Below, piece by piece: positions 14,416 to 40,495 of a DNA stretch of 64,000 bases. The notes beneath the pieces were generated by a model that saw only the letters and a program-made list of their open reading frames with translations, was not told where the DNA came from and did not search any database. Origin of the DNA: Betaproteobacteria bacterium (GTDB lineage Bacteria > Pseudomonadota > Gammaproteobacteria > Burkholderiales > CAIKXV01); NCBI GenBank assembly GCA_947458265.1, contig CANGYF010000007.1, positions 1 through 64,000 of the forward strand, in the 5' to 3' direction. Both the position numbers and the translations under genes were made by a program. The stretch's first letter is position 1; each line of letters opens with the position of its first letter.

Positions 14416-16050
14416 TCAGGAGCCTTCGCCGCTCCGGCTGGGGTGGGCGGGAGCCGTGGTCGGTACATCCAGCCCGCGCGGCAGCACCATGGTGCGCGAG
14501 GCGTCGCCGAAAATCGAACTGGCCGCCGAGACGAACAATTCGGGCAGGTCGCCTGGTTTCGTCGTGCCTGCCTTCTCGTCTGCCTTCTCGCCCGCCGTCC
14601 CGTCCGCCTTGCCCTCTGCGGCGCCGATCGGGCGGCCGGTCCAGGGAATGGCGTCGTACTCGGCGAGCGGGTCCAGACCGGACTCCGGGACCCGTGCCAG
14701 GTCGGCCGGGTCGGAGATCGGGACGCGCGCCAGCGGTGCATGCTGGATGACAGTTGCGTTGGCGCTGCGCAGACGCCGGAGCAGGGCATTGACCAACAGG
14801 GTCTGGAAGTGTCCCTTGCACTCCTCGGAAGCCAGCTCGAAGGCCGCCAGGTTGACTTCCAGGAAGGTGATGTCGCCGATGGCGACGACGGTTGCCGTAC
14901 GCACCGACTGGGTCGGCGAGAGGAAGGCCATCTCGCCCAGAACCTCGCCCGGACCGAGGCGGGCCAGCAGGCGAGCGTCGAGCGACACTTCGACCTCGCC
15001 GTCGATCAGCACCCCGAAGGTGCGATTCTCGTCGCCTGCCTCCATCAGTGCGATGCCGTCACCGACCTTGCGCCAGGTCGTGATGCGCAGCACCTCCCAC
15101 AGCTCGACCCGCTCGAACTGCGCAAAGACCGGCAGCGAACGCAGCCGTTCGAAGCGGTCGTTCAACTTCTCGACCTCCTCGTCTTTCAGCTGGTAGCGCG
15201 CGGCGGCGAGGTCCTTGCCGAAGTCCGCGCCGGTCTTGTAGCGGGAGTACAGGTCCTTCTCGAGCGCACGCTTGACGATCGGGTCGAGTTCCGGCGGGAT
15301 CGCAGGGTTCAGCGAGCTCACTGCGGGGGAGTCGGAGTTGATGATCTTGTAGATCAGCTCGGGGTAGTGCTTGGCACGGAACGGAACGCGGCCGGTGAGC
15401 ATCATGAACAGCACGACGCCCAGCGAGTACAGGTCGGTCTGCTGGTTCAGTGCATAGCCCTTGACCTGCTCGGGCGACATGTAGGCCGGCGATCCGACGC
15501 CCATGACGAAGGTGGAGTCGTGCTCGGACCGCTTCTGCATGTTGAGCGCGAGCCCGAAGTCCATGATCTTCGGGGTGTCGTCCGGGCCGACCATGATGTT
15601 CGCCGGCTTGATGTCGCGGTGGACGACGCCCTGGCGATACGCGTAGTCGAGCGCCAGGCAGCACTTGAAGATGATCCCGACGACCCGTGGCAGCGGCAGC
15701 AGGCGGTCGAACGCGCAGAAATCGGCGAGCGTCGGCCCTTCGACGTACTCCATCGCCATCAGCGCGGTGTTGTCGTCGACCACGGTGTCGTACACCTTGA
15801 CGATGTTCGGATGGTCGAGCCGGGCCGCGACTGCACCTTCGGTCTGGAACAGCTTGCGCAGCCGGCGGTGCTGCTTCACCCGCGCCTCGCCCTCCTCGAG
15901 GTCACCGCCGAACTTGATTACCTTCAGCGCGATCTGGCGCTCGTGGCGCGGATCATGGGCGAGGTAGACGGTCGCGGTCGCGCCCCGACCGAGCGGGCGG
16001 ATGATCTGGAAACGTCCGATCCGGACCGGTTTCGACTCGGCTTCGGACAC
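14416..16050 (-). CDS. Serine/threonine protein kinase with C-terminal cyclic-nucleotide-binding domain
   Basis: A 544-residue soluble protein. Residues about 12-280 form a Hanks-type kinase: Gly-rich loop GRGATATV (21-28), Lys43 in ALKVIK, catalytic loop HRDIKPAN (144-151), DFG (164-166) and SPEQ (192-195). Residues about 313-415 form a cNMP-binding domain with the phosphate-cassette-like GEMAFLSPTQSVRTA. The last 100 residues are low-complexity, rich in Ala, Lys, Asp and Pro. All key kinase residues are present, so activity is likely; the ligand (cAMP, cGMP or none) is unknown. Start is GTG 16050. No transmembrane segment. It is divergent from grpE. Confidence 0.93.
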   Translation of the reverse strand: MSEAESKPVRIGRFQIIRPLGRGATATVYLAHDPRHERQIALKVIKFGGDLEEGEARVKQHRRLRKLFQTEGAVAARLDHPNIVKVYDTVVDDNTALMAMEYVEGPTLADFCAFDRLLPLPRVVGIIFKCCLALDYAYRQGVVHRDIKPANIMVGPDDTPKIMDFGLALNMQKRSEHDSTFVMGVGSPAYMSPEQVKGYALNQQTDLYSLGVVLFMMLTGRVPFRAKHYPELIYKIINSDSPAVSSLNPAIPPELDPIVKRALEKDLYSRYKTGADFGKDLAAARYQLKDEEVEKLNDRFERLRSLPVFAQFERVELWEVLRITTWRKVGDGIALMEAGDENRTFGVLIDGEVEVSLDARLLARLGPGEVLGEMAFLSPTQSVRTATVVAIGDITFLEVNLAAFELASEECKGHFQTLLVNALLRRLRSANATVIQHAPLARVPISDPADLARVPESGLDPLAEYDAIPWTGRPIGAAEGKADGTAGEKADEKAGTTKPGDLPELFVSAASSIFGDASRTMVLPRGLDVPTTAPAHPSRSGEGS

Positions 16051-16082
16051 TATCTGGCGACGGCCCTGTAGTTCATGGAGTC

Positions 16083-16110
16083 ATTATGCCCGGCTTTACG
16101 GCAGTGACAA
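16083..16110 (-). promoter_or_regulatory. Sigma-70-type promoter for the kinase gene
   Basis: On the minus strand TTGTCA (16105-16110) and CATAAT (16083-16088) are separated by 16 bp, each matching consensus at five of six positions. The predicted start of transcription is near 16076, on an ATG that opens an 8-residue ORF (MNYRAVAR). Its TAG stop overlaps the GTG start of the kinase. Confidence 0.55.
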
Positions 16111-16120
16111 TCCAACTTTG

Positions 16121-16190
16121 ACCCATTCATGTCGACCTGGGCCCATTCTGGTCCATTCCGGTCCATTCCGGTCCATTCCGGTCCATTCCG
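16121..16190 (+). repeat. Helically phased 10-bp tandem repeat upstream of grpE
   Basis: Four identical units GTCCATTCCG run from 16151 to 16190, preceded by a variant unit GCCCATTCTG (16141-16150). A further degenerate unit ACCCATTCAT (16121-16130) is in the same 10-bp register. The array stops exactly where the sigma-32 -35 element begins, and the next ten bases (GCCCTTGAAT) resemble another unit. The 10-bp period puts each copy on about the same face of the helix. Confidence 0.9.
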
Positions 16191-16193
16191 GCC

Positions 16194-16219
16194 CTTGAAT
16201 ACCGGCGGACAGTCCCCAT
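16194..16219 (+). promoter_or_regulatory. Sigma-32 (RpoH) heat-shock promoter of grpE
   Basis: CTTGAA (16194-16199, within CCCTTGAA) and CCCCAT (16214-16219) match the RpoH -35 and -10 consensus exactly, with a 14-bp spacer inside the known range. Predicted transcription start is near 16226, about 105 nt before the grpE ATG. The gene downstream is a classical heat-shock gene. Confidence 0.87.
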
Positions 16220-16330
16220 CAACCCGGGGCGGGTTGATTCAGGAATCGTATCCTGACCGGATCGACCGCTGCGCCGGACGCCCGGGACGGGCCGGATCCG
16301 GTATCGAACATGCCAAGGAGAGCCAGACCG

Positions 16331-16909
16331 ATGTCGCAACAGGATCCATCCCAGGCCGGCAAGCCGGACACGCCGGACAGCCCGGCCACCGCCACGGACG
16401 GCGCACCGCCGGCCGATGCCGCCAGCCTGGCCGAGGCGCTCGCGAAGGCCGAGGCCCTGGCGCAGGAGCACCAGGAGAACTGGCTGCGTGCGCGGGCGGA
16501 GGCTGACAACATCCGCAAGCGCGCCCAGATGGATGTCGCGAGCGCCCACAAGTACGCGATCGACAACTTCGCGGGCGAACTGCTGCCGGTATACGACGCG
16601 CTGGACGCCGCGCTCGCCACCGGCAACGCCACCGCCGAGTCGCTGCGCGACGGGGTGGAACTGACCCGCAAGCAACTGCGCACCGCGTTCGAGAAGTTCG
16701 GCCTGACCGTGCTCGACCCGGCGGGCGAGAAATTCGACCCGCACCACCACCAGGCGATGACCGCGATCGAGTCGGACGCCCCGGCCCAGTCGGTACTGCA
16801 GGTGTTCCAGAAGGGCTTCAAGCTGCACGACCGGGTGGTCAGGCCAGCCCTGGTCGCGGTAGCGAAGCCGAAGGCCGACGCGGGCGAAGCCGGCACGGCG
16901 CCTGCTTGA
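16331..16909 (+). CDS. grpE: Nucleotide exchange factor GrpE
   Basis: GrpE releases ADP from DnaK. The 192-residue protein has an acidic, Ala/Pro-rich N-terminal tail, the long coiled-coil helix (ENWLRARAEADNIRKRAQ near 58-75) and the C-terminal beta domain with the signature FDPHHHQAMTAIES. ATG 16331 is chosen because AGGAG (16316-16320) lies 10 nt upstream; an earlier in-frame ATG at 16310 lacks this. First gene of the grpE-dnaK-dnaJ cluster. Confidence 0.97.
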   Translation: MSQQDPSQAGKPDTPDSPATATDGAPPADAASLAEALAKAEALAQEHQENWLRARAEADNIRKRAQMDVASAHKYAIDNFAGELLPVYDALDAALATGNATAESLRDGVELTRKQLRTAFEKFGLTVLDPAGEKFDPHHHQAMTAIESDAPAQSVLQVFQKGFKLHDRVVRPALVAVAKPKADAGEAGTAPA

Positions 16910-40428: not shown

Positions 40429-40492
40429 AAAAGCGTATCTGACCCGGATTTCAGGGAAAAAGCGTGTCTGACCCGGGTTTTGACCCGGGTTT
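40429..40492. repeat. Direct repeats between the FAH-family and trypsin-like genes
   Basis: Two 23-bp copies starting AAAAGCGT and continuing TCTGACCCGG (40429-40451 and 40458-40480, about 29 bp apart) are followed by a truncated third copy, TGACCCGGGTTTT (40480-40492), next to the FAH-family stop. Only a few positions differ. The core TCTGACCC is shared with the palindrome at 24054-24070. Confidence 0.75.
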
Positions 40493-40495
40493 TGG

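Follow-up and report, generated by a model that had tools for sequence, protein, structure and literature searches.

In their fuller form, the promoter elements recognized by the heat-shock sigma factor RpoH (sigma-32) are CTTGAA and CCCCAT. The RpoH consensus in print consists of TTGAA and CnATnT, as given in the available part of PMC9866376. Promoter repeats whose copy number varies, and for which effects on expression have been reported or proposed, are described in other bacteria in the accessible portions of PMC3899988 and PMC12817950; thus, a tuning role for such a repeat is possible in principle. Among the best matches in the open-licence PMC literature, as judged by titles and the beginnings of abstracts, we found no description of a tandem array at grpE or at a sigma-32 promoter.

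In the window analyzed here (the whole 64,000-nucleotide stretch of DNA), a 10-bp tandem array is located in the gap between two divergent genes, one encoding a protein kinase and the other one grpE (Table 1), which is followed by dnaK and dnaJ, with hrcA and a ferrochelatase gene nearby. Very probably, this array is a lineage-specific minisatellite that arose by slippage expansion of six 10-bp units and whose effect on grpE is most likely small. The start codon of grpE is most likely the ATG at 16331 rather than the first in-frame ATG at 16310 because the former is kept in all 6 alignable members of the same genus (hereinafter congeners) and the latter is not; across these genomes, the ATG is preceded by AAGGAG or a similar site (AAGGAA in G006 and AAAGAG in G008). 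The open reading frames that overlap the array (16129-16506 and others) look like chance frames in 68% G+C DNA. A coding repeat was rejected because the period is not divisible by 3 and because the location of the array is the kinase-grpE gap.

Table 1. Positions of the features discussed in the text (window coordinates unless a sampled stretch is named)
Feature	Position	Strand	Remarks
Ser/Thr protein kinase with cyclic nucleotide-binding domain	14416..16050	-	divergent from grpE
Putative sigma-70-like promoter of the kinase, TTGTCA-N16-CATAAT	16083..16110	-	predicted from sequence
CAACTTTG block	16113..16120		left landmark; common to G006 and G008; CAAATTTG in G002
Interval between the CAACTTTG block and the -35 element	16121..16193		73 bp here; 13 bp in G006, G008 and G002
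Degenerate unit ACCCATTCAT	16121 (start)	+	6/10 match to GTCCATTCCG in 10-bp register
Degenerate unit GTCGACCTGG	16131 (start)	+	5/10 match to GTCCATTCCG; unrecognisable as a copy
Near copy GCCCATTCTG	16141-16150	+	8/10 match to GTCCATTCCG in 10-bp register
Four perfect tandem copies of GTCCATTCCG	16151-16190	+	units start at 16151, 16161, 16171 and 16181; each 10/10
GCC	16191-16193		sole 3 bases between array and CTTGAA
Predicted sigma-32 (RpoH)-type promoter of grpE-dnaK-dnaJ, CTTGAA-N14-CCCCAT	16194..16219	+	-35 at 16194-16199, -10 at 16214-16219; sequence, conservation, rpoH present
Perfect dyad TCAACCC-N5-GGGTTGA	16219..16237		over the predicted transcription start; first base is the last -10 base
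grpE	16331..16909	+	Pfam GrpE, E 1.7e-47; probable start ATG 16331
Fifth other array of the background sample	L122:3082-3134

The array is real, and chance is excluded: its longest exact self-match run at period 10 spans 32 bases, whereas runs in 200 resamples of the window under a first-order Markov model averaged 8.6 bases and never exceeded 12, and TRF delineates it at 16143-16191 (period 10, 4.9 copies, 97% matches, score 91). Together with direct reading of the register, these results confirm the description in an earlier note on this DNA, namely, four identical copies, a near copy and a degenerate copy, all in a 10-bp register, in front of CTTGAA-N14-CCCCAT. The claim of the same note that the copies are in helical phase holds with respect to the near-helical period but not to exact phasing: DNA has a helical repeat of 10.5 bp per turn, relative to which, by simple arithmetic, a 10.0-bp unit drifts by ~17 degrees per copy. 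The copies beside the promoter are perfect and those upstream decay, the perfect ones being probably the newest. The single GTCCATTCCG unit, with at most 1 mismatch, has 9 matches in the window (4 of these in the array) versus 5.24 expected, a count that was reached in 10 of 100 shuffles, so that the unit as such is not enriched in the window.

The promoter that follows the array appears to be an ordinary, conserved promoter of the RpoH type, an assignment that is well supported. The N14 spacing between the two elements falls within the 13-15 bp criterion, the genome encodes RpoH (406.6 bits for TIGR02392 versus the cut-off of 323.1), and the pair TTGAA..CCCCA is found upstream of grpE in 7 of the 7 congeners read, with GTTGAA in G007 and a different last base of the -10 element in G007, G010 and G001 (CCCCAC or CCCCAA). 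The earlier assignment of CTTGAA and CCCCAT to an RpoH promoter of grpE is thus supported by both the presence of rpoH and the retention of the promoter in all these relatives. The exact pattern CTTGAA-N13-15-CCCCAT has one match in the genome itself, as does the reversed control; genus-wide, 13 matches in 8 of the 11 genomes compare with 7 for the reversed control, so that the pattern is only mildly enriched by count alone. Eleven of these 13 matches precede heat-shock-type frames: grpE (5) and frames that, from their translations, we take to be lemA-like (4) and clpB-like (2). With the spacing fixed at N14 and at most 1 mismatch, there are 11 matches in the genome itself versus 7 for the control, and one of them is a lemA-type string.

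The array itself was detected in none of the relatives. The DNA upstream of grpE was readable in 7 of the 10 congeners (the exceptions are G003 and G005, which lack a grpE match, and G009, where the gene is cut by the contig end); in all 7, the array is absent and the promoter is kept. A 20-base dimer of the unit, with up to 3 mismatches, occurs in its own genome only at the array (0 matches for the reversed-pattern control) and, with up to 2 mismatches, in 1 of the 11 genus genomes, this one, several of the assemblies being 83-89% complete. Across the order, the dimer was found in 2 of 200 genomes, namely, this one and, at a single 2-mismatch site, G125; the latter is at the background level given that the reversed pattern, used as a control, matched 3 times, in 2 genomes. 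The 30-base trimer has 0 exact matches in the genome_contigs collection, which consists of contigs of at least 3,000 bases and may omit this genome. In a wider comparison, 47 of 50 grpE loci had 350 bp of upstream DNA (4 of the 47 are congeners already counted, and in some, where the match starts mid-gene, the 350-bp stretch begins inside grpE); none of the 47 contains a comparable array, the longest exact self-match run at periods 5-30 being 10 bases versus 32 here.

Two of the checks proposed in the earlier note, conservation of the array upstream of grpE in relatives and occurrence of the unit elsewhere in the genome, accordingly came out negative. The note would have abandoned a regulatory array if close relatives lacked it and still regulated grpE normally; such relatives do lack the array, and their normal regulation is deduced from the kept promoter. 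A dispersed repeat family was rejected as well because, even with 3 mismatches allowed, the genome has no further dimer.

Comparison of distances shows how much DNA was gained. The start of the kinase gene lies 150 bp from the sigma-32 -35 element here versus 89-91 bp in all 6 alignable congeners (G002, G004, G006, G007, G008 and G010; G001 is diverged, without landmarks, and was left out). The -10 block of the predicted kinase promoter (ATTATG on the plus strand; this block is what was compared) is present in 6 of the 7 congeners read and is located 112 bp from TTGAA here versus 51-53 bp in congeners (G002 has two such blocks, 68 and 53 bp from TTGAA, and the nearer one was used). The distance from CAAxTTTG to TTGAA is 82 bp here versus 22 bp in G006, G008 and G002; this landmark (CAACTTTG/CAAxTTTG) was not found in G004, G007 and G010. 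Taken together, the three comparisons put the gain at 60 bp, that is, six 10-bp units.

The interval between the kinase and the grpE promoter (16050-16199) is conserved in length in 6 of the 6 alignable congeners despite diverging sequence, and this genome breaks the conserved spacing by 60 bp. In the same genomes, the spacing between the promoter and grpE varies widely: the aligned frame starts 71 to 158 bp after TTGAA. The conserved length of the interval suggests that the two divergent promoters are coupled.

The array itself, its absence in the readable relatives, the difference of 60 bp in length and the retention of the promoter are the observations from which we infer slippage as the process and near-neutrality as the outcome. 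Because the relatives keep the promoter without the repeats, the array is best interpreted as a recent slippage expansion rather than a conserved control element. Under this scenario, a short stretch beside the -35 element of the grpE sigma-32 promoter would have expanded by 60 bp, most likely via replication slippage, after the species split from its congeners. Since the array sits upstream of the -35 element, the geometry of the core promoter is intact, and the effect on grpE expression would most likely be small, apart from a 60-bp increase in the distance to the divergent kinase promoter. The change may nevertheless not be neutral because the kinase-grpE spacing looks length-constrained in the relatives. 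The ancestral seed of the expansion is not recognisable in the congeners: the 13-bp spacers resemble rotations of the unit no more closely than shuffled sequences do (of 5000 shuffles, 4132, 4141 and 465 reached the spacer match for G006, G008 and G002, respectively). Because the seed is unrecognised, insertion of a foreign 60-bp piece instead of slippage is conceivable.

Short arrays are a regular, albeit sparse, feature of this genome, as follows from the presence of 6 distinct arrays, including the one at grpE, in a background sample of 464 kb (the window and 20 sampled stretches), where 22 TRF rows score at least 70 and 7 of these rows, corresponding to the 6 arrays, have a period not divisible by 3. 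Four of the 5 other arrays were placed using an ad hoc codon-composition rule, 2 between genes and 2 touching the 3' end of a gene. Their units are unrelated to GTCCATTCCG and differ from array to array. The grpE array is on the strong side of this background given its exact self-match run of 32 bases versus at most 22 elsewhere in the sample (periods 5 to 40), which counts against the minisatellite interpretation.

Four of these arrays (L137:390-442, L137:16271-16322, L139:3961-4007 and L139:415-469) have periods of 13, 14 or 28 and differing units. Repeats of TGACCCGGGTTTT at 40469-40494 and at L139:415-469, distant from each other and intergenic, share a longer core, AAAGCGTGTCTGACCCGGGTTTTG, and are possibly a dispersed repeat of this genome.

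Several functional interpretations have to be weighed against a recent expansion of little consequence. Slippage could change the number of units and, with it, promoter strength at grpE or the kinase gene, producing reversible expression variants. Both TRF and the self-match run do identify a tandem array in a regulatory region, the four perfect copies suggest recent turnover, and similar promoter repeats are found at nadA, hifA/hifB and porA (available part of PMC3899988) and at dop, lpdA and cysG (available part of PMC12817950). Against such tuning, the array lies outside the spacer between the -35 and -10 elements, so that the number of units is without effect on core spacing, and this number comes from one genome of the species. 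Furthermore, grpE-dnaK is a housekeeping operon rather than a surface or efflux gene. All considered, we regard reversible tuning of this kind as unlikely. A related possibility is that an array of variable copy number sets the distance between the kinase and sigma-32 promoters and hence their coupling, with slippage tuning the chaperone level. The basis for this proposal is the length of the interval, 89-91 bp in 6/6 alignable congeners and 150 bp only here, and we consider it quite improbable.

The earlier note also proposed that the units bind a regulator cooperatively or form an UP-like site for the alpha subunit of RNA polymerase. The copies stop 3 bp short of the -35 element and have a near-helical period, as could be expected of such sites. 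However, the array is missing in 7 of 7 readable congeners and no second dimer exists in the genome, so that the unit is neither conserved in close relatives nor repeated at other promoters, as cooperative sites would be. UP elements are A+T-rich tracts just upstream of the -35 element; here, the A+T content is 33% over the 24 bp before the -35 element and no A/T run exceeds 3 within 40 bp, and an UP element was rejected on this base composition (the corresponding 24 bp of the congeners, with 25-50% A+T, are likewise not strongly A+T-rich). An array hairpin was rejected, too, both strands folding ordinarily as single-stranded DNA (z -0.87 and -1.01). Because the unit is not conserved, the dimer is not found at other promoters, the array is not A+T-rich and its fold is ordinary, a regulatory role of the unit seems unlikely, and a binding array or UP-like site is, in our assessment, very improbable. 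Finally, the array could be an artefact of assembly given that six congener records are, by title, metagenome-assembled genomes and this genome may be one, too. Against this, at 49-73 bp, the array is below common read lengths, and assemblers presumably err more often by collapsing repeats than by creating them; we regard such an artefact as extremely improbable. A recent slippage expansion thus remains our preferred interpretation.

The better-conserved features of the region, as read from the genus-wide comparison, are the predicted promoter, the kinase-to-promoter spacing and the dyad at the putative transcription start. The 7-5-7 pairing of the dyad is complete (7/7) in this genome (G000), G004 and G006, with 6/7 pairs in G008 and 5/7 in G002 and differing loops; hence the dyad is retained at this place, with a loop that varies (at least 5/7 pairs), in 5 of the 8 genus members, including this one. 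At the grpE position of G010, G007 and G001, it is not kept (3, 3 and 0 of 7 pairs, respectively). With at most 1 mismatch, the dyad occurs at 6 places in the 11 genus genomes (the reversed control, at 1), of which the grpE site accounts for 4; with at most 2 mismatches, there are 8 places in the genome itself, one of them at grpE, versus 2 for the control. It is absent among the dyads listed (at most 2 per locus, arms of at least 7) for 43 non-congener grpE loci, and none of the matches listed in a literature search for its letters is, by title, a heat-shock-promoter paper. Because the predicted start, at the distance that we assume for sigma-32 promoters, falls inside the dyad, the dyad is more likely to act as a DNA operator than as an RNA hairpin and is a candidate operator of some regulator.

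The promoter, the kinase-grpE spacing and the start-site dyad therefore appear to be better targets for study than the array. More generally, even a conspicuous array next to a consensus promoter can have arisen by recent expansion in a single lineage; if, in contrast to our preferred reading, its copy number varied and mattered, this would be a slippage-tuned chaperone operon.

In comparison with the RpoH heat-shock promoters covered by the available part of PMC9866376, the promoter described here is alike in the TTGAA -35 element, the C-rich -10 element with AT and the position before grpE-dnaK-dnaJ; it differs from the CnATnT consensus of that source in the final T, which is A here (CCATCA). 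The tandem array directly upstream sets it apart from such promoters, being confined to this genome among those read. The repeats at hifA/hifB, porA and nadA, as described in the accessible part of PMC3899988, are likewise located in or beside a promoter, and hifA/hifB is also a divergent pair; the hifA/hifB and porA repeats, however, alter the spacing between the -35 and -10 elements, whereas the array here is wholly upstream of the -35 element. The repeats at dop, lpdA and cysG of Mycobacterium tuberculosis, as presented in the accessible part of PMC12817950, resemble this array in being tandem, located directly upstream of a gene and attributable to strand slippage. Their units are 54-58 bp long versus 10 bp here, they are not described in that part of the source as sigma-32 promoters, and their copy number was observed to vary, whereas the array at grpE is known from a single genome.
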